A stretch of DNA of 64,000 bases from Planctomycetaceae bacterium (GTDB taxonomy: Bacteria; Planctomycetota; Planctomycetia; Planctomycetales; Planctomycetaceae), in NCBI GenBank assembly GCA_021732845.1, contig JAKFUF010000011.1, forward strand, positions 1 to 64,000, read 5' to 3'. Every line of letters starts with the position of its first letter. The first letter of the stretch is position 1. The notes beneath the pieces were generated by a model. The model searched no databases. It was not told the origin of the DNA and saw nothing but the letters and a program-made list of their open reading frames with translations. Below are positions 9,052 to 64,000 of the stretch, in pieces. The position numbers and the translations under genes were made by a program.

Positions 9052-9335
9052 CGCAGCACCTCGTTTGGCCGGCCAGGAAATCTTGTGACCTGAGATTCGC
9101 CATTCTCTCCGGGACATGCAACCGCTGGCAAGGAGGGAGGAATGGCGGGCATAAACCGGAAGAGTGGCACAATCCGGCCACGCGGCAGATCTTTCGAAAT
9201 TTGCCGGATTGAATTCTCTGAACTTTCTACCGGGCTGCCGTCGTCTATAATGAAGTGCGTCTGTTGTGGATGCCGGTGCGCAGACATTCTGTCACACACC
9301 GGTGCCCGTCCGCGTGATCACGCTTGGATTTCACC

Positions 9336-12300
9336 ATGGCCAGTCCGTCGGAAGTCACCCCCCATGCCGGGAATTTTGTCGGCTCCGACGAGTACATCGC
9401 CTTCCAGTTGGGAAAAACGCAGAGCAACATCAAGTGGGCCGAAATCGGGGCCGCCCTGCTGTGGATCTCGATCGCCTTTTTCGCCTACCTGCTGTTCTTT
9501 GTAGTTTTTGACCAGTGGGTCATTCCCGGTGGCTTCAGCCTGGCTCCGCGGCTGGTAATGCTGGCACTCCTTGTGGGCGGCATCGGCTGGGCGGTCTGCC
9601 GGCATGTGCTGTTCCCCAGCGTCAAACAGGTGCATGAACTGTACGCCGCCCGCGTCCTGGAAAATGCCGATCCCGCGCTCAAAAGCGCGCTGCTGAACTA
9701 TGTCGACCTGCAACGGGCGGGGCAGACGCTGTCGCCAGCCGTGCAACGCGCGCTCGAAAAGCGGGCGGCAGTCACCCTGCACAAGAGCGATGTCGACCAG
9801 GCGGTCGACCGGCGGCCGTTGCTGCGGTTCGCGTATGTCCTCCTGGCGCTCGTGGCTCTGTTCGGGATCTACACCGTCCTGTCCCCCAAGGACGTGATGA
9901 CTTCCGTCAAACGGGCGCTGCTCCCTTCCACCACGCCGGTCGCCACGCAAACCCAGATCGCGGAAGTGACACCAGGTCATGTCACCATGGCGGCCCGCAA
10001 TCCGCTGGTGGTGGAAGCCGACATTCGCGGAAAAATTCCCGAGTCGGTGCAACTGATTTACACCACGGCCGATCGCAACATCCTGAACGAAGCGGTGGAG
10101 ATGCGGCAGATCGACCCCGCCCTGCCACGCTTCCGAGGCACGATTTCCAGCGACGGCGGCCGGGGCCTGATGCAGGATGTGACGTACCACGTGGTCGCCG
10201 GGGACACGCGGACGGAAGAGTATCACGCGACCGTCATTCAGCCGCCCTCCGCCAAGGTGAACGAGGTCGAATACGCGTATCTGCCCTACACGAAGCTCGA
10301 GCCACGAAAGATCCCCGGCGGCGCGATTGATGCGTGGGAAGGATCGACAGTCACCGTCCGAGCCACGACGAATGTGCCAGTCAAATCGGCCGTGCTGATC
10401 CTGACCGACAAGGAAGATTCGCACGCCAAGGGCGATGAGATTCCGCTGGCCGTAAAAGAGGGGACGAAGCTGGAAGGGCAGTGGACGCTCGGATTCCGCC
10501 GCGATGGCACCGCGCCGCGGTTCTACCACATCCAGGTGCGCACGGAAAAAGGCGAAACCGACCCCGACCCGACACACTATCCCGTCAAGCTGCGTCCGGA
10601 CCAGCCGCCCGAAGTCGTTTTGCTGACGCCGTCAGGGGACGTGCAGATGCCGGCCAACGGCACGCTGGCGATGTCGCTGCAGGCGGCCGATCCCGATTTC
10701 GGGCTCCGCTCGCTGACACTGCGGGCCGACCTGCCCGACGGACGCGAACCACTCAGCCAGCGGCTGTTCGAAGATCGCGAACTGGGAATGTCATTCAAGG
10801 GGTTGCACCTGTTCCCACTTCAGCGGTTGAAACTCAAATCCGGCGACAAACTCCAGGTGTGGATCGAAGCCAAGGATACGCGGCAGCCGACCGCCAATGC
10901 CCGCACCACGCCCAAGATCGAAATCACCCTGACGGATCCCGTCTCGCCGAAACAGGCCGCGGAAGAACTAGCCAAACAGCAGCAGAAGCAGGACGAACTG
11001 GCCAGCGCCGACATGCCCAAGGAGAACCCGGAAACACCGGATCAGCCGGAGAACGAACCGAAAGAACCCAAGTCCGACGATCCCATGCAGGATGACCAGG
11101 CCCCGCGCAAACCACCCGAGGCTGGCGAAAAACCCGGTCCAAAAAACACCGAGAATCCTCCCGAGGAGGAGCAGCCCGAGAACAAGGATCCACGGTCCGA
11201 CGAAGATGTTTTGAAGGAGTTGCTGGAAGACCAGCAGAAGAAACGGGACCAGCAAAAAGACGAGAACAATCCCCGGCCCGATCCAAATCAGCCCCAGCCT
11301 CCTCAAGAGAAGCCCCAGCGCGATCCCAATCCGCAGGGGGAGAACAAGCCCCAAAGCGGCAAGCCACAGTCCCAGCCGGGGAAATCCGAGGCTGGCAACG
11401 CAGGCGGCGCGGAGAATCCGCAAAACGGCGGATCGAAATCCACCGGGAAGGGCAACCAGGGAGCCCCCACAAAAACCCCGCAGAACTCCAAGCCGGGCGA
11501 GAGGCAACAGCCGGGTGCCAACAACCAACCAGGTGGAGAAGGGGAACCGAAGGAGCAGCCATCGGCCGACAAACCTTCGGAAAACTCGGCCGACGGGCAG
11601 CCGTCCTCGGCGGGTAAAAGCAACCCGCAAAAATCGGAAACCAAGAAATCAGAGAATGGCCGGCCTGACGCGCAGCCCGGCGCAGGGAAACAGGAATCGG
11701 ACCCATCGGGGGCCAAGCCCAACCCCGCGACAAAGAGCGAGAAAGAGCCTGGTTCCAAGCCAGAACAGCGTTCTGACGGGATGAACCCACCGGAAGGCGC
11801 GAGCGGGAATGCGGCCGAAAAAACGCCGATGCCGAATTCCGCCACCGGTACGGAAAAGAAGGACAGAGGCAAGGAGAAGGACGCAGAGAAAGCCGCAGAG
11901 ACATCCACCGAGAAAGCGGCAACGAAGCCCAGCGGAACGCCCGACAACACGGCTGCGGCCAAAGGCGGCGCGGAGAAAGCCAACTCGGGCGAGGCGGCGA
12001 AGTCCGATTCGCCGATGGGCATGCCGCCAGAACCAGCGGCCAAGCCCGGTAAGACGCCCGACAGCAAGGCCTCCTCCAGCCAGAAGCCGACCGAGTCTCC
12101 CAAGGGGGCCGCGGAGAACCAGCCTGGCGGGACCGAGAAGACCCCCGGTTCCAAGCCGGGCGAGACACCCAAGCCCGGTGACACCCCAATGCCCGGTGAT
12201 TCGCCGATGTCCGGCGAAAAGCCGGGTGACCCAGCCACGGCGGCCAAGCCGGATGCCGCGAAACCTGGCGAGAACACGACTGAAAAGAAGGGCACTGAAA

Positions 12301-14324
12301 CGACCGGTGCTGAAAAAGGTGGCGAAAAGAAAACCGGGGAAGAGAAGACTGGAGAAAAGAAGAATGGAGCGGGCAAGCCAAACGCCCAGAATGCCCCCAA
12401 GCCGGGCAATGCCCCCATGAATACGGGCGATAAACCGGCTGGAACCTCCGACAACAAGACTCCCGGAAAGACCGCCGAGAAGCCGATGGGTGAGAAGCCC
12501 AAGGGCAATTCGCCCATGCCGATGGAGAACGCCACGGGAGAGAAAACTGCGGGAGAGAAGGCTGCCGGCGAAAAAACGGCCGGGGAGAACGCCAAACCAG
12601 GCGACATGCCGGACGAAACAAAGGCCGATCAGCCTGGAAAAGCCGGTGAGGAAAAAGGCACGCCGGAGATGCCGCCCAAGCCACAGGCTGGTGGCCAGCC
12701 CGAAGATATGGCTGGCGGCAAAAACGAAGCGGGCGGCGGTCAAAAGGAAACCGATGACCCGGCCTCGCCCGAGCAAAAACCGGGCGGCGGCGACAAGGGC
12801 AAACCGACAGCGGGCAACAAGCCCGGTGCGAACGACGAGCCCGCGCAACCCGGCCAGGGAACCAAGCCTGCACGCCAGGATGACCAGGCGGCGGCACCGG
12901 GCGAGACCAATGGCATGGGCGAAGAGAAGCCCACCGAGGATTCTGAAAACGCCCGCGATGTGAAGGCCACTGGCGACGAGAAAGGCCCGGCCACCGGTTC
13001 GGAGAAGGCCGGCACGAACAACGCCCGGGCGAAGAATGATCTCCCGCGGAAGGACGACAAGCAGGGGGTCCGCAAGCCGGGTGATCCCGCACATCCGCCA
13101 GAAGACGGGAAGACGGAGGAGGGCCAGGCCGAGGGGGAAAAAGCCAAGAACGGCAAAAAGCCCGAGAACGCGAAGCCGGCTCCGGGCCAGTCCGGCGGTG
13201 CCAGTGACCAGGCCGAGCAGGCGAAACCAGCCAACGATCGCAAAACCGATCCCGATCGGTCCAACGACCCGGACGCCGAACGTCCGCATGACGACGCAAA
13301 AAACCCAGACCGGCCGCCGGAACGCAACGGCGGTCAGCCGGATGCCGGCAACGACAAACTCAAGGGCGAGGGCCGTAAGGGCGGGCAAAAATCCGAGAGC
13401 CCCATGGGTGGCGAAGCTGGTGGCAGCAAGGCTGCCGAGAAGGGAAACCAGGGCGGCCAGAACAAGGGGCCGGGCGACAAGTCGAATGAGCCCGGCACTG
13501 CCGACAAGGCCAATGGAAAAACCGGTGAAGCAGGCACTGAAAAGGGCAACGGCTCCACCGACAAACCCGGCGATTCCGGCTCCAAGCCCTCCACCGAAAA
13601 GGGCGGCAGCCAGGAATCCGAGAACGGCGGAAAGCCTGAGGGGGCAAGCGGAGAGAAGGGTGGCCAGCCAAATTCGAAACCCGGCCAGCCTGGTGGAAAC
13701 TCTGCCAAACCCCAGGACAATGGAACGCGGCAAGAGGGCAACCAGACAGACCAAGGGTCTCCCTCTAATGACAAGGGCGGTTCCCAGTCTGGCAAGGGTC
13801 AGGGCGGCGATGGCGCGCCCGCCCGTGGCAGCGACCCTGGCAACGAAAACATGTCCCGCAGCCTGAACAATGGCGGACGCGTCGACGGCCCGAACAAGGA
13901 CGCGGTCAACGAGGACTCGCCTCTGCCCCCCGAAGAGAACCTGCAGCGCAACCGGGATGCGTCCAACCTGGTCCTCAGCAAGCTCAAGGATCAATTGGAA
14001 CGCGGCGAGGTTGACCAGGATCTGCTCAAACGGCTGGGCTGGACGGAAGACAGGCTCGAGAACTTCGTCGAACGGATGGATCAGAAGATCAACGATCCCG
14101 GCGAAGACAACTCGCCCGAGGGCATCGCCCGCCGCAAGCGTTTCGAAGAATTCCTGCGTTCGCTCGAATTGACCGCCTCAACCAAACGCAAGAAAGCCGG
14201 CGACCGCGTCAACCGGCTCGGCCCAAACCTGCAGAACGATTCGCAGGTGCCCGCGGAGTTCCGGGAACAGTATGAGGCCTACACAAAAAGCCTCAGCAAG
14301 GAGAAGGCTGCGCCGAAGAAGTGA
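9336..14324 (+). CDS. giant DUF4175-like membrane protein with ~1000-residue disordered linker
   Basis: The protein has 1662 residues from the ATG at 9336 (an in-frame TTG lies four codons upstream). Membrane segments occur at about 30-55 and 60-80, with another near 165-185. Residues about 200-540 form a beta-rich probable extracytoplasmic region with motifs like those of planctomycete DUF4175 proteins. From about 545 to 1540 it is one long low-complexity chain of K, E, P, G, A, N, D and Q with recurring KPGE, EKPG, GEKT and AGGK units and almost no hydrophobic residues. A folded helical C-terminus follows (DRLENFVERMDQKINDPGE region). The coding strand is purine-rich throughout the linker. 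It is divergent from the AAA/TPR operon, 284 bases away. Function unknown; a surface or envelope-spanning tether is plausible. Confidence 0.85.
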   Translation: MASPSEVTPHAGNFVGSDEYIAFQLGKTQSNIKWAEIGAALLWISIAFFAYLLFFVVFDQWVIPGGFSLAPRLVMLALLVGGIGWAVCRHVLFPSVKQVHELYAARVLENADPALKSALLNYVDLQRAGQTLSPAVQRALEKRAAVTLHKSDVDQAVDRRPLLRFAYVLLALVALFGIYTVLSPKDVMTSVKRALLPSTTPVATQTQIAEVTPGHVTMAARNPLVVEADIRGKIPESVQLIYTTADRNILNEAVEMRQIDPALPRFRGTISSDGGRGLMQDVTYHVVAGDTRTEEYHATVIQPPSAKVNEVEYAYLPYTKLEPRKIPGGAIDAWEGSTVTVRATTNVPVKSAVLILTDKEDSHAKGDEIPLAVKEGTKLEGQWTLGFRRDGTAPRFYHIQVRTEKGETDPDPTHYPVKLRPDQPPEVVLLTPSGDVQMPANGTLAMSLQAADPDFGLRSLTLRADLPDGREPLSQRLFEDRELGMSFKGLHLFPLQRLKLKSGDKLQVWIEAKDTRQPTANARTTPKIEITLTDPVSPKQAAEELAKQQQKQDELASADMPKENPETPDQPENEPKEPKSDDPMQDDQAPRKPPEAGEKPGPKNTENPPEEEQPENKDPRSDEDVLKELLEDQQKKRDQQKDENNPRPDPNQPQPPQEKPQRDPNPQGENKPQSGKPQSQPGKSEAGNAGGAENPQNGGSKSTGKGNQGAPTKTPQNSKPGERQQPGANNQPGGEGEPKEQPSADKPSENSADGQPSSAGKSNPQKSETKKSENGRPDAQPGAGKQESDPSGAKPNPATKSEKEPGSKPEQRSDGMNPPEGASGNAAEKTPMPNSATGTEKKDRGKEKDAEKAAETSTEKAATKPSGTPDNTAAAKGGAEKANSGEAAKSDSPMGMPPEPAAKPGKTPDSKASSSQKPTESPKGAAENQPGGTEKTPGSKPGETPKPGDTPMPGDSPMSGEKPGDPATAAKPDAAKPGENTTEKKGTETTGAEKGGEKKTGEEKTGEKKNGAGKPNAQNAPKPGNAPMNTGDKPAGTSDNKTPGKTAEKPMGEKPKGNSPMPMENATGEKTAGEKAAGEKTAGENAKPGDMPDETKADQPGKAGEEKGTPEMPPKPQAGGQPEDMAGGKNEAGGGQKETDDPASPEQKPGGGDKGKPTAGNKPGANDEPAQPGQGTKPARQDDQAAAPGETNGMGEEKPTEDSENARDVKATGDEKGPATGSEKAGTNNARAKNDLPRKDDKQGVRKPGDPAHPPEDGKTEEGQAEGEKAKNGKKPENAKPAPGQSGGASDQAEQAKPANDRKTDPDRSNDPDAERPHDDAKNPDRPPERNGGQPDAGNDKLKGEGRKGGQKSESPMGGEAGGSKAAEKGNQGGQNKGPGDKSNEPGTADKANGKTGEAGTEKGNGSTDKPGDSGSKPSTEKGGSQESENGGKPEGASGEKGGQPNSKPGQPGGNSAKPQDNGTRQEGNQTDQGSPSNDKGGSQSGKGQGGDGAPARGSDPGNENMSRSLNNGGRVDGPNKDAVNEDSPLPPEENLQRNRDASNLVLSKLKDQLERGEVDQDLLKRLGWTEDRLENFVERMDQKINDPGEDNSPEGIARRKRFEEFLRSLELTASTKRKKAGDRVNRLGPNLQNDSQVPAEFREQYEAYTKSLSKEKAAPKK

Positions 14325-14801: not shown

Positions 14802-19115
<4,314 letters not shown>

Positions 19116-19255: not shown

Positions 19256-19759
19256 TCAACGCTCCTTGTCCCACTTGTCCCAGAGAAGAAAGCATCCCAG
19301 ATAAGTTCGGGCGAAGTCATCCTGCCGAATTCCACTCCAGTCGACGAAGGCCTGCTCGACCCGCCTGACAATTGCGAGGGCCTCCTGGCGTGTGAAAGAC
19401 TTTGACAAATTATAGTCCGCTTCGTGCCGGGCTTCCTGCAGATCGACAAACGTCTTGGCGACATTCATCAGCGTTGGCGGCATTGCCAAGGAGCCTTTCG
19501 CGCCAATTGCCCTCGGACAGTGACCAATCATGAATTCTCTCGACACTTTCCGCATTTCGGCATGGTTGTAAGTTCGGTTGATTCGCGCCAGCAAATGCCT
19601 GTCCTTGACGAATCTTCGTGACGCTTCAAATGTCAGCAGGTGAAAAATCGCATAGTAGGCCGAGGAAACTGCACGGCAGAGGCTGGCCTGCCGCGGACGT
19701 CGGGATTCTCGCATCGCAAGATGCTTCGCCTGCTTCAACAATTCCGCGTGCAGACTCAT
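19256..19759 (-). CDS. HEPN-domain protein inserted between rpoB and rpoC
   Basis: The start at 19759 is chosen because GAGGTG lies just upstream, overlapping the stop of the preceding gene (TGAGGTGCGAATG); an ATG 21 codons earlier would overlap that gene. The protein has 167 residues. SSAYYAIFH (about 32-40), the later EARHEADY, and an R-x6-H pair (R59, H66) match the HEPN fold. Many HEPN proteins are RNases and act as toxins or in defence, with R and H as catalytic residues. Others only bind nucleotides or partners. The tight coupling to the preceding gene suggests a two-component module such as toxin plus antitoxin. That assignment is inference. It would normally be co-transcribed with rpoBC. 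Confidence 0.82.
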   Translation of the reverse strand: MSLHAELLKQAKHLAMRESRRPRQASLCRAVSSAYYAIFHLLTFEASRRFVKDRHLLARINRTYNHAEMRKVSREFMIGHCPRAIGAKGSLAMPPTLMNVAKTFVDLQEARHEADYNLSKSFTRQEALAIVRRVEQAFVDWSGIRQDDFARTYLGCFLLWDKWDKER

Positions 19760-19766
19760 TCGCACC

Positions 19767-20414
19767 TCAGGCCGACTGTTCCGATGTGGTCCGGATTCGC
19801 ACATACGGCCAGCGGGTGACATTCATTTGCTTTAATGCAGTTCGTAGCTGGTCTTCCACCGTGTTGTAATTGTTCAAGAGCACGTCGTCCGCTGCCGCGG
19901 CATCATCGATTTCTGCCCAGATCCAGATACCGGGCTCGCCGGTCGAGTCGTAATCCGTGTCGATTCTCAGCCCGTTCACCCAGTCGGGAAACGTACCCTG
20001 CAGCCGGGATTCGAGTTCCTTTCCGATGACCAGCGCCTCGGGATCGCCAAATTTATCAGGCCGCAAGACCTCCAAAACACCCTGAAATGCCACACGTGCC
20101 TGCGTCCGGGAGGCCTCCGTGATTGAAGAGGCCGAACCGGGAGCCTGGGTGGCAGCCACGAAATCACGGACGCAATCTGCCAGCTTGCCCCGTTCCGCTC
20201 CTGTGAGGAAACTCCAGTCTCCCTCGTTGAAATTTGCCACAGCGTTAGGATTCAACCACTCCTCTGATCGCTGGAAAAATTTCTCATACTGGGTTGTGTC
20301 CAGTTTCGGGGAATCGACCGTGGCCTTGTTGGAGAGCCTTCTTGATGCGGCGCGGACGTTGGCCCAAAAAGGGGTGATTGCATCCACCACAGCAGCCATC
20401 GCGGAGGTCTCCAT
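19767..20414 (-). CDS. partner of the HEPN protein, unrecognised
   Basis: From the ATG at 20414 (GGGAGAG six to eight bases upstream) the protein has 215 residues. There is no signal peptide or membrane segment. The C-terminal 100 residues contain GIWIWAEIDD and end with RWPYVRIRT, a tail I associate with proteins encoded next to HEPN genes of the MSLHAELL type. The N-terminal half is helical and not recognised. It starts 73 bases after rpoB stops and ends seven bases before the HEPN start, so it should be transcribed with the RNA polymerase operon. A role as antitoxin or adaptor to the HEPN protein is possible but unproven. Confidence 0.75.
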   Translation of the reverse strand: METSAMAAVVDAITPFWANVRAASRRLSNKATVDSPKLDTTQYEKFFQRSEEWLNPNAVANFNEGDWSFLTGAERGKLADCVRDFVAATQAPGSASSITEASRTQARVAFQGVLEVLRPDKFGDPEALVIGKELESRLQGTFPDWVNGLRIDTDYDSTGEPGIWIWAEIDDAAAADDVLLNNYNTVEDQLRTALKQMNVTRWPYVRIRTTSEQSA

Positions 20415-20486: not shown

Positions 20487-23400
20487 TCACACGTGCTTTT
20501 TCTCCAACTGGAGATTCAAAGCCAGACCACGGATTTCGTTGTTGAGCACGTCGAAGCTGGCTGGCGTTCCGGCCTCGAGCGTGTTCTCACCCTTCACCAT
20601 CGACTCGTAAATCTTCGTGCGGCCTTCGACGTCGTCGCTCTTCACCGTCAGCAGTTCCTGCAGAATGTAAGCCGCGCCGTAAGCTTCCAGCGCCCACACT
20701 TCCATTTCACCGAACCGCTGGCCGCCGAAGCGGGCCTTGCCGCCCAGTGGCTGCTGGGTGATCAGCGAGTACGGCCCGGTGGCCCGGGCATGCACCTTGT
20801 CGTCGACCAAGTGGTGCAGCTTGAGCATGTAAATTGTACCCACCGTCGTCTTCTGCTCCAGAGCCTCGCCGGTACGGCCGTCATACAGCACCGACTTGCC
20901 GTCGTGCGGCAGGCCGGCTTCGACGAGACATTCGCGGATCAGCTCTTCGGCGGCACCATCGAACACCGGGCACTTTGCCATGTATCCCATCGTGGAGGCC
21001 GCCCACCCGAGGTGGGTCTCGAGAATCTGACCCACGTTCATGCGGCTCGGCACACCCAACGGATTCAGAATGATATCCACCGGCGTTCCGTCGGCGAGGA
21101 ACGGCATGTCCTCGATCGGCAGGACCTTCGAGATCACACCCTTGTTGCCGTGGCGGCCGGCCATCTTGTCGCCGACCGAGATCACGCGCTTCGAAGCCAC
21201 GTACACCTTGACCATCTGCAGCACGCCGCTGGGGAGTTCGTCCCCGCGCTTCATCGTGTTCAACACCCGGTCACGCTGGTCAATCGCCTGTTCGACGAGC
21301 GGCCAGTGTTCCTTGATGACCTTGTCGGCTTCGGCCCGCTTCTGCGGACTGCGCAGATCCAGCTTCTCGTATTCCTGGAAGAAGTTCTGGGCGTAATTCG
21401 CGATGTTCTTCTCGTCGGGCTCGGAACGGATCGCCTTGCCATTGGCATCCTGCAGCTTCTTGTCCAGAACCTGTTCGAATTCGTTCAGGAATTCCTTGAA
21501 CGCCGTGGCAATCGCCTTGGCCCCATCGTCTTCCTTCTGCTTCAGCTCCAGTTCGAACTTCTTTCGCTCGGATTCCGTGAGGCTCATCCGGCGGGCGAAC
21601 CGCTGGGTGTCGATCACGATCCCTTCGACGCCGCTGGGGACTTCCAGCGAGTCGTTCTTCACGTCTTCGCCTGCCCGGCCGAAGATCGCATGCAGCAATT
21701 TTTCTTCGGGGGTGAGTTCCGTTTTTGCCTTGGGCGACACTTTGCCAACGAGAATGTCGCCAGCGGAGACCCGCGTCCCGACATGCACGATGCCGTCATC
21801 ACCCAGGTGCCGCAGGGCTTTCTCGCTGACGTTGGGAATGTCGCGGGTGAACTCTTCGCGGCCCAGCTTGGTTTCACGAATTTCCACGTCGAACTCGTCG
21901 ATATGAATCGACGTGTAGACGTCGTCGCGGACCAGCCGCTCCGACAGGATGATCGCATCCTCGAAGTTGTAGCCTTCCCACGACATGAAGGCGACGAGCA
22001 CGTTGCGGCCCAGCGCCAGTTCGCCCTGGCGGGTCGCGGCTCCATCGCACAGCAATTGGCCTTTTTGCACCTTCTGGCCGAGCTTCACGATCGGCTTCTG
22101 GTTCAGGCAGGTGCGTTCGTTGAGTCCCGTGTATTTCTGCAGGGGATAGATCTTCCCGTCGATTTCGATGCGATCGGCGTCGACGTAGTTGATCGTGCCG
22201 GCCTTCTCGGCCCGCTGCAGCATGCCCGAGTTCTGAGCCACGGCGATTTCCAGCCCCGTGCCGACGACGGCCGGTTCGGTCACCAACAGCGGCACGGCTT
22301 GACGCTGCATGTTCGAACCCATCAGGGCCCGGTTGGCATCGTCATGCTCGAGGAACGGAATCAAACCGGCGGACACGCCCACCATCTGGCTGGGGGCAAT
22401 GTCCATGAACTGGATCAAATCCGAATCGACCATCACGAAGTCGCCGCGGAAGCGGGCCAGTACGCGGTCGGTGGCAAATTTGCCCTTCACCACGGGCGTG
22501 TCGGCTGGGGCGAGGTAAATCGACGATTCCTCGTCGGCCCGCAGCCACTGCACCTCTTCGGTAACGCGGCCGCCCTTGATGACCCGATACGGGGTGATCA
22601 GGAAGCCATAGTCGTCGACCTTCGCGAAGATGCTGAGGCTCGAAATCAAACCGATGTTCGTGCCTTCGGGCGTTTCGATCGGGCAGATGCGGCCGTAGTG
22701 CGAGATATGCACGTCGCGGACTTCGAAGCCGGCGCGCTTCCGGTTGAGACCACCAGGCCCGAGGGCACTGAGGCGTCGTTCGTGCGTCAGCATCGACAAC
22801 GGGTTCGTCTGGTCGACCACCTGCGACAGTTCGCCGCGACCGAAGAAGTACTCGATCGCCGCCGAGACACTCTTGGGGTTGACCAGCGTCCGCGGGGACA
22901 TTTCTTCGACATCCTTGACGCTCATCCGCTCCTGCACGGTGCGGCGGAGCTTCAGGAAACCCTTGCGGATTTCGTCGGCGGCCAGCTCGTCGATCGTCCG
23001 CAGACGACGGTTGCCAAGGTTGTCGATGTCGTCCACATTGACGCTGTTGTCGCTGGCCCGCAGCTTCAGGATGTAGCGGATCGAGTTGATGAAATCCTCT
23101 TCGCGGAGGGTCATCACATCGTCCGGGACGTCCTGGTCGAACTTGCGGTTGATGCGGAACCGGCCCACGCGGCCCAGCCGGTAGCGGTTCACGTCAAAGA
23201 ACTTTTCCTTGAACAGATCGATCGCGCGGTCCAGCGCCGGCGGGTTGCCCGGACGCAGCCGTTGGTAGATCCGCAGCAGCGCCTCCTGGTGGCTCACCGT
23301 GCTGTCTTCGTGGATCGTGTTCAGCACGAGGGGGTCGACATTGCCCGGCAGGACCGGCACCGTTTTCAGACCGGAGTCGAGAATCTCGCCCGCCAGTTCC

Positions 23401-24203
23401 GCCGTGATCGCCTGGCCGGTTTCGGCGATGATCTCGCCGGTGCGCTGGTGAGTGCCTGGATAAACGATGTCGGCGGCGGCGACCTTTCCGGTGACGGTCG
23501 TCGTAAACTCCGCATCGGCCGTGTCCAGGTCGGTCACCGTGTAAAACAGCTTGACCAGTGCGGCGTCAGTGGAGAGTTCCGGGTTCATCGCCCGCAGGAG
23601 CGTCGTGGCGGCAAATTTGCCGCTTTGGTCAATTCGGACTCCCAACGTTTCACGTTTGCTGATATTCAGCTCAATCCAGCTTCCGCGCTCTGGAATGATG
23701 CGGCAGGAGAAGGTCTTCTTCTCGCCGGGTTCCGATGCCGACACGAAATCGACGCCGGGCGAACGATGCAACTGGCTCACGACAACGCGTTCAGCACCAT
23801 TGATGATGAACTCGCCGCCGCCGAGCATGATCGGCATGTCGCCCAGGTAGACCTCTTCTTCCGCCGGCTGTTCCTTCATCAGCCGCAGCCACACCCGGAA
23901 CGGACGACCGTAGGTCATCCGCAGTTGCTTGCACTCCGTCGGGGTGTAGCGGGGCTTGCCGAGTTCGTAGCGGACGTACTCAAGCCGGTGCTGACCGTCG
24001 TAGCTCTCAATCGGGAAGATCTCTTTGAGAATCCCCTCGATTCCGTAGTCAAGACGATGCCGCGGGTCGGCCTCCAATTGGAGGAACCGCGCGTAAGATT
24101 CGGTTTGAATCTGCGTCAGGTCCGAAAGGGCGAACTCTCCGGCGATCGTTCCGAAGTTTCGCACCTTGTCGAACCGGAGGCTATGCATCGCGGGGGTGGG
24201 CAT
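20487..24203 (-). CDS. rpoB: DNA-directed RNA polymerase subunit beta
   Basis: The protein has 1238 residues, shorter than E. coli RpoB (1342) as in many phyla lacking the gammaproteobacterial inserts. It forms the other half of the polymerase active-site cleft. Conserved landmarks include [12 protein letters not shown], the rifampicin region ([33 protein letters not shown], split here across about 470-510), the nucleotide-contacting [10 protein letters not shown] motif, and the C-terminal [24 protein letters not shown] upstream supports the start. A 555-base gap with a strong hairpin separates it from rplL. Two extra genes follow before rpoC. Confidence 0.99.
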
Positions 24204-61716: not shown

Positions 61717-64000
61717 ATGACAAGTTCCAGCGGAAATGTGAGCGAAGTGTCGAACGATGCTTTCCAGCTTCGGGCTGTTGCTGAAGCCCATGGTCTTCCG
61801 GCGGGAAGCGTTCGGGCAGGAATTGTCTCCTCGGGGCGGTTGTCGGTCTCGATTCAAAGCGTGCTTGAAGAGGTGCTCCGCGACACGGCTGATTTGCCCC
61901 CATGGCGAACGCGGGAAAATCCGTTTTTGGCCGAAGCCGACCTGGCACACCTTGATGAAGACGGGATGATTCGGCCCGGAAGCCTGGTTCGCGCGGAGGA
62001 CACGCTGGTCAGCATCGTGGCCGCCAGCGGACCGGCGAAGAACGGGCGGATCCCGATTGAGGATGGATCTTGGATTGTTCCCGCCAACTGGGATTCGTCC
62101 GAGGTGATTGACATCCAGTGTGAATCTTCAACAGGCCGGCGACGGGAGTTTCCGCAGGGAGTTCTTGAGCGCTATCGGGTCACGCTTCGCCGGACGATTC
62201 CGTTCCACATTGGCGATGCGCTGGCAATCGCGGAGGTTAATTTCAAAACCACGGGAGCCGTTTCCGATGACTTGATGCCGCGCGACGCGGATGGCCATCC
62301 CGCCGACATCGTGGTGCCAACAAGTGTGGCGGAGCGCCTGGGGCTGGCTGCCAAAACTGTCCAGGCATGTGAGGTGCGTCGTGTCGGCCAACCGGCCGTT
62401 GATGTCTTGAAGGCGCGGGCGGTGGGGGCCTATTCGCTGATTACGATGCGACCGCATTGCGGGAAGCGAGTCTTGAGACCCGGCGTGCGGATGACTGCGG
62501 AACAACTGCAGTGGCTCCAGGAGCGCAGCTTGTTCGCGCTGCTCGCCGAATTCACGAGTCTGCGGTCGGATGACCTGCAGAATCGTCCGCTGCTGGCAGC
62601 CCTGGCCGATGGAGAGTTGTCGAACGTCGAGTCCCTCGTCCCGGCTGCGCCGGAATCGCTGTTTGAAGTGCAGGAATATCTTTGGGCTCTGGGGGTGGGC
62701 GTTGCACTCAGCCCATCAGAGCACTGTGTCCAAGCGGTGCTCTGGCCCGCCGCTGATGCGGAGATCGTCGAGAGATCACATGGAGCAATTCGCAAGCCCG
62801 AGACGCTCAACTACCGCACCTACCTCCCCGAACCGGGAGGGCTGTTCTGTACAACGGTGTTTGGTCCCGAAGATTCACTGCTCCGCCGGCGCAGTGCGGG
62901 GCATATCGAGTTGTCGGAGCCCGTGATTCCGATTTTGTGGAGGCTGGGACCAGAACCGATCCTGGGGCAGATTCTCCAACTGTCGGAGCAGGATCTGGAA
63001 GCAATTATCTTCAGGCAATCAACGGTTTTTGTCCGTGATGGCGAGGTGAGTCTCAGGCCGGTGGACCAGCTTAAAAAGGACTCAGACAACGACGGCGGGA
63101 TGGACTTAGGGACCGGGTGTGACGCCATCGCTGCACTGTTGCTGAGACTGCCGCCAGCTTCAATTCCCGCCGCCTTCGGTCCGGCGGGCGAACGATTTTT
63201 CACCCGCTCGATTGCGATGGTGCCTCCGGATCTCCGCCCGCTTGTCCGGCTGGCGAACGGAAATTTCGCGACATCCGACTTGAATGACATGTATCGGCTG
63301 CTCACCAATCGCAACAACCGGCTGCGCAAGCTCAAGGATCTCAATGCGCCAGAGGTCATCATTCACAATGAGATCCAGCAACTGCAGCGAGAGGTTGATC
63401 GACTGCATGCGAACAGCTTCCTGCCCGCGTCCCGCCAACTCATGGGAAGCGCCCATCGCCCGCTGGTCAGTCTGCTCGACCTGCTGACGCACCAAATCAT
63501 GACGGCTGCCGAGCGCGTCGTGGAATGGTGTGGTCAGGCGCGCGGCGTCGCCTGCGCTAGCGTCGCGCCGCAGACGGTCCACATCCCCGCCGATATCTTC
63601 GACGAACTGCAACTGACGGAGGCGCACCCCGTCTTGCTGACCTCCGCCTGTGGCTCATTTCTGGCCCGCCGTCCCCATAGAATTGACGGCCCGGTGATGT
63701 TGCTCACGCCGGAGGATGCGGCGCTCCTGCTCGAACCTGAATCGACCGTGGTTGTCCACCGACTCATCACAGCCGCTGCAAGAGCCGAGGCGATGCAGCT
63801 TCTGAATGACGGATCCGGTCATGAGGCGCGGCGCATTCCAGGAGGCGACTGGTGTCAGTCAGACGATCCGCAGTCCATCAGCCAGCAGATCATTCTTGCG
63901 GCCTCGAACCGGCGGAAGACTCAGATGAAGTCGTTGCGGGGGGTGGCATTGTTCGGCACCGGTGCGGTCACGTCGGATCCGCCGGATGCATCGATCGATC
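61717..64000 (+). CDS. fused, catalytically degenerate RpoB/RpoC paralogue (runs off the window)
   Basis: The ATG at 61717 has GAGGT six bases upstream. 761 codons are open to the window edge. Residues 75-104 ([20 protein letters not shown]) match Rpo[21 protein letters not shown]. Residues 153-195 match the RpoB stretch ISVGDKM to DGTPVDIIL. Residues 233-251 ([19 protein letters not shown]) match [19 protein letters not shown]. From 360 on ([19 protein letters not shown]) the match switches to RpoC and stays in order: GHIEL 395, PPDLRPLV 503, NFATSDLND 516, HPVLL 637. The zinc finger is deleted (nine residues where RpoC has 37), the [10 protein letters not shown] motif is rewritten, and NADFDGD is absent where expected (about 660-670). 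It is thus a beta/beta-prime fusion that should not polymerise. A sigma- or NusG-related regulatory role is inference. The 3' end is not seen. Confidence 0.88.

Follow-up and report, generated by a model that had tools for sequence, protein, structure and literature searches.

Two genes stand between rpoB and rpoC at this planctomycete locus, and the question is what they encode, how they came to be there and whether the position itself matters to them. The window, i.e. the whole stretch of 64,000 nucleotides that was analysed (positions 1 to 64,000 of contig JAKFUF010000011.1, Planctomycetaceae bacterium), was used to define the locus, and both proteins were then compared with relatives in other genomes, plasmids and viral contigs.

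Organization of the rpoB-rpoC locus

All four genes are read from the minus strand in the order rpoB, a 72-nt gap, a partner gene of 215 codons, 7 bases, a HEPN gene of 167 codons, about 150 nt and rpoC (table 1). Both inserted reading frames are intact, and their coordinates bear out the preliminary description of two coupled genes of the same direction: the partner stop codon occupies 19767–19769, the HEPN ATG starts at 19759 with seven bases in between, and a Shine-Dalgarno sequence overlaps the stop. The start of rpoC is 19115 or 19103, of which relatives use the equivalent of 19103. GC3 was 0.64 and 0.66 in the inserted pair versus 0.81 and 0.86 in rpoB and rpoC, although low values are expected anyway for genes expressed less highly than these two.

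Table 1. Features of the rpoB-rpoC region (window positions).
Feature	Position	Strand	Remark
rpoB	20487..24203	-	intact; upstream flank of the insertion
Hairpin between rpoB and partner, 14-bp stem, 6-nt loop	20438..20471	-	not a canonical terminator (lacks a U-run)
Partner gene, 215 aa, long form, probable antitoxin	19767..20414	-	
Partner N-terminal helical domain, about residues 1–120	20055..20414	-	common to the long-partner planctomycete clade
Partner C-terminal alpha-beta-beta-alpha-beta domain, about residues 125–211	19782..20042	-	conserved in all partners
Shine-Dalgarno sequence GAGGTG over the partner stop	19763..19768	-	
HEPN gene, 167 aa, probable RNase toxin (predicted)	19256..19759	-	
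R62-x3-H66	19562..19576	-	both residues in 70/70 members
R111-H-x-A-D-Y-(D/N) motif	19409..19429	-	R111, A114 and D115 in 70/70 members
rpoC	14802..19103 (or from 19115)	-	intact; downstream flank

It had been stated that no terminator separates the pair from rpoB. This holds in so far as no canonical terminator was found, but a strong hairpin that lacks a U-run is present there (folding energy -35.8 kcal/mol, z -5.0). Stems of at least 10 bp were found in 19 of 69 rpoB-rpoC gap entries of relatives without the insertion, so the hairpin need not be part of the inserted module. Since it is single-copy in the genome and a search of the flanks of the pair for direct repeats gave none that was convincing, neither a transposon nor a repeat element could be recognized at the insertion. 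The gap between the HEPN gene and rpoC had no notable structure (folding z +1.3).

The genome is a metagenome-assembled or draft sequence in 262 contigs and the insertion occurs in this genome only, which could point to an assembly artefact. This is a far-fetched explanation, however: both junctions lie between intact genes with Shine-Dalgarno sequence and start codons present, rpoB and rpoC are single-copy (apart from a divergent paralogue) on one 137-kb contig, and completeness and contamination of the genome are 96% and 1.5%.

Two further reading frames in the window were recorded. The first (61717–64000, plus strand, continuing to 64752 of the contig; L248) encodes 1011 amino acids in which an rpoB C-terminus-like part is joined directly to an rpoC N-terminus-like part, with 36% identity over the junction-spanning stretch, no DFDGD motif and a different terminal domain that by eye seems DUF1963-like. 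Judged by its sequence it is a divergent paralogue of a fused beta/beta-prime-like type; it lies about 40 kb from rpoBC, and 60 sampled genomes of the family gave no match to it. The second (9324–14324, plus strand), which adjoins the 3' end of rpoC, encodes 1666 amino acids with a very long low-complexity region rich in P, G, E, K and N.

Rarity of the insertion

Across 65 distinct genomes from the family, the rpoB stop codon lies 45–255 bp from the YDRVND motif of rpoC; here this distance is 1404 bp. Of 99 genomes sampled from the phylum, 71 had both matches readable, and in these the gap between the rpoB and rpoC matches was at most 347 bp, as judged by eye from the coordinates. The pair was absent from every other measured gap and is thus not a ubiquitous component of planctomycete rpoBC operons, a possibility that the preliminary description had left to be checked. 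The contrast with the short gaps of relatives marks a single lineage-specific insertion and not a housekeeping arrangement: the pair was inserted once, in this lineage, and is seen in one genome, which is also the only genome of its genus in the collection.

In the open-access papers searched, neither this pair nor any toxin-antitoxin pair within rpoBC was found to be described; an earlier description elsewhere is possible. The excerpts of an operon-cluster study that were available (PMC8046335) describe insertions between operons as well as one of nrdHEF, placed within the rpoBC operon between rplL and rsmC, and these excerpts do not mention an insertion between rpoB and rpoC.

Fold and candidate active site of the HEPN protein

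The downstream protein had been called a HEPN protein, and fold and profile comparisons agree on this. Its AlphaFold model (pLDDT 95.6) has the predicted four-helix HEPN fold, with AF0298 as the best solved-structure match (2hsb, Z 11.6, 3.1 Å over 115 residues), followed by archaeal HEPNs, sacsin and HepT-type toxins and, lower, AbiV (9bj6, Z 6.0), nearly all top ranks being HEPN proteins. Profile similarity likewise places it in the HEPN superfamily, as the family profile matched 2hsb and 9xbd (E 6e-4). PF05168 was matched by 34 of 70 HEPN members at E up to 0.1; the window protein scored 13.1 bits against the Pfam HEPN model, whose curated cut-off is 22, and every member checked individually was also below the cut-off.

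Six residues (S32, R62, H66, R111, A114 and D115) were invariant in all 70 members. R59-x6-H66 had been proposed as the RNase pair, and the spacing is indeed present in the sequence; R59, however, occurs in just 12 of the 70, and the pair was rejected. Because R59 varies freely and H66 does not, the active-site assignment was changed, not dropped. The canonical Rx4-6H motif is missing, as the invariant R111 is followed by Y116 and N117 with no histidine. For HEPNs of this kind that have a conserved histidine further upstream, among them AF0298 and AbiV, Anantharaman and co-workers proposed an alternative site (PMC3710099) made up of a basic residue of the motif and the upstream histidine, and R111 and H66 provide both. 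The candidate site therefore fits the alternative-histidine type of AF0298 and AbiV and not the canonical type. The window copy has C28 where 68 of the 70 members have arginine, so this particular protein may be weakened.

The resemblance to AF0298 (UPF0332) extends from the fold to a STAYYA-FH helix and an R-x-x-(A/S)-D-Y motif. The window family differs in an extra C-terminal helix, in the invariance of R62-x3-H66 and in its upstream partner, which is near-obligate, with AF0298 compared as a protein alone. AbiV of Lactococcus, named in the PDB title of 9bj6 as an RNase in a two-component antiphage system, likewise has a conserved histidine outside the canonical motif, but its structural similarity is only distant (14% identity) in a comparison of the HEPN protein.

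The partner protein

In the model of the partner (pLDDT 91.7), a helical N-terminal part is followed by a C-terminal alpha-beta-beta-alpha-beta domain. Only the latter is common to all partners, most of which are 85–165 amino acids long, and the helical part is characteristic of a planctomycete clade that includes the window copy. Fold matches of the partner (C-terminal domains of cation-efflux proteins, RbfA and RimP) had Z below 8 in a common arrangement and were not used as evidence.

The gene order, partner first and HEPN second, is that of the HEPN-MNT type VII systems (HepT/MntA), whose HEPN also shares the fold (Z 7–8), and an MNT-like partner was considered on that basis. This candidate was discarded: none of 69 partners matched the nucleotidyltransferase families of Pfam, and the modelled topology is different. 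A further difference from these systems is that the HEPN lacks the canonical Rx4-6H motif. Neither protein of the pair had an adequate model in Pfam, NCBIfam or PADLOC.

Spread and pairing of the family

At least 540 HEPN relatives were found in one scan of species genomes; the best 79 of these came from Planctomycetota, Acidobacteriota, Pseudomonadota, Myxococcota, Armatimonadota, Cyanobacteriota and Verrucomicrobiota. In 105 of 108 loci, drawn from at least seven phyla and from Rhizobium plasmids, the partner domain immediately precedes the HEPN gene on the same strand; part of these loci had been used to build the partner profile. All 19 phylum and plasmid loci that were fetched separately (two of them not independent) were positive. 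The three misses were a contig end, a locus in which the partner is present by eye (L104) and one with a diverged upstream gene (L061). Across loci, the partner stop and the HEPN start usually overlap or lie a few bases apart, so that adjacent coupled genes with the presumed antitoxin first, as in type II systems, are the rule. Distances among partners and among HEPNs were correlated (r 0.60; permutation maximum 0.13), as expected for co-inheritance.

The distribution is sporadic and partly mobile, again as in type II systems. The module was present in about 10 of 170 genomes of the window's family, mostly in another clade, and in 13 of 392 genomes of the phylum. It was also carried by 29 plasmids, 20 of them conjugative and Rhizobium plasmids among them; on three plasmids that were read, it adjoins repABC, ProQ/FinO or ParB genes and both of its genes are annotated as hypothetical. 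Two viral contigs carry it, one beside a gene that by eye is portal-like, and the GenBank phage collection gave no match. A viral-protein cluster of PHROGs, phrog_5176, was matched by 69 of 70 HEPN members (best E 2e-12); the cluster has no function and no stated partner, whereas the window family has one.

Most of 113 module neighbours were ordinary metabolic or housekeeping genes. The start of pyrG (CTP synthase) lies divergently near the module in five Acidobacteriaceae-type loci (L087, L105, L113, L115, L119), which suggests a stable ancestral site in this group; copies beside ordinary chromosomal genes, and repeatedly beside pyrG, suggest that some modules are stable residents. Defence neighbours were few (Cas1, AbiEii, restriction-modification), and with no well-fitting PADLOC model, membership in defence islands was set aside as weak.

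These data bear on two other functions. The main rival to the toxin-antitoxin reading is abortive infection, in which the two genes would form an AbiV-like antiphage system, not an addiction module, and the partner, as a sensor or a brake, would release the HEPN RNase upon infection. The structural match to AbiV, the alternative-histidine site discussed for AbiV (PMC3710099) and the few defence neighbours speak for it; the mostly ordinary neighbours, the poor fit of PADLOC models to both families and the rank of AbiV below many other HEPNs speak against it, and we consider it possible though unlikely. That the pair is no toxin system at all, the HEPN binding RNA and acting with its partner in regulation or RNA processing, would suit the recurrent pyrG-side positions and the finding that catalysis can be absent from HEPN domains that lack the canonical motif (PMC3710099). 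Six invariant residues across phyla, mostly polar or charged, the sporadic and partly plasmid-borne distribution and the near-obligate pairing make such a role quite doubtful. The suspicion of a toxin pair gains from the same pairing and mobile spread and from the conserved candidate site, in so far as a toxin-pair-like character is concerned.

Significance of the rpoBC position

The preliminary description had further held that, by its position, the pair would have its expression tied to RNA polymerase and its loss would be costly. At about 85 other loci (rough gene calls), the neighbour was co-directional in 48 of 82 cases upstream and in 44 of 88 downstream, no preference for operons or for an orientation relative to neighbours was seen, and a motif search of these loci found no other rpoB or rpoC neighbour. 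An adaptive linkage to RNA polymerase is thus unsupported, as the module has no operon preference elsewhere. Retention of the insertion because the pair is thereby coupled to the synthesis of RNA polymerase, with a penalty on loss, is compatible with the shared direction, the unremarkable folding after the HEPN gene and the intactness of both genes. Yet the genus is represented by a single genome, no second insertion of this size occurs in the measured rpoB-rpoC gaps, and exact excision of the pair would restore a normal rpoBC, so that together with the missing operon preference this explanation appears improbable. We read the position as one tolerated insertion.

Proposed mechanism and implications

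The sequence evidence is best read as a toxin-antitoxin module of type II-like character (or an abortive-infection module) whose antitoxin is undescribed and not of the MNT kind; partner-first order, coupled translation, near-obligate pairing, mobile and sporadic spread and a conserved candidate RNase site argue for it. It is reasonably probable that a mobile toxin-antitoxin-like two-gene module was inserted once and that its HEPN protein is an RNase toxin blocked by the upstream partner. The module would ride on the rpoBC transcript at this site, since rpoC needs read-through and the pair would have to be transcribed with rpoBC. The partner would be made first from the same transcript, with HEPN translationally coupled to it. 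Most likely, the HEPN protein acts as a toxin, a metal-independent RNase whose putative site is probably at the dimer interface, where H66 and R62 would act with R111 and D115-Y116; cleavage of cellular RNA would lead to growth arrest. The alpha-beta-beta-alpha-beta domain of the partner would bind and block HEPN, probably by contact rather than by AMPylation.

A more specific role, in which the pair guards host transcription and a phage that shuts off or degrades the rpoBC transcript depletes an unstable partner first and so frees the HEPN RNase, seems to us very improbable; if true, it would mean that the RNA polymerase operon is under surveillance by the cell itself.

The novelty lies mainly in the family: HEPN and partner form a large cross-phylum family to which the family libraries searched give no functional name. 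Should the toxin-antitoxin reading be confirmed, the partner, being other than the known MNT antitoxin, would represent another way of controlling HEPN RNases, and the alternative-histidine site would become testable by three point mutations. The insertion between rpoB and rpoC is a rare break in a very conserved operon and amounts to a natural experiment on the tolerance of this site for foreign genes.
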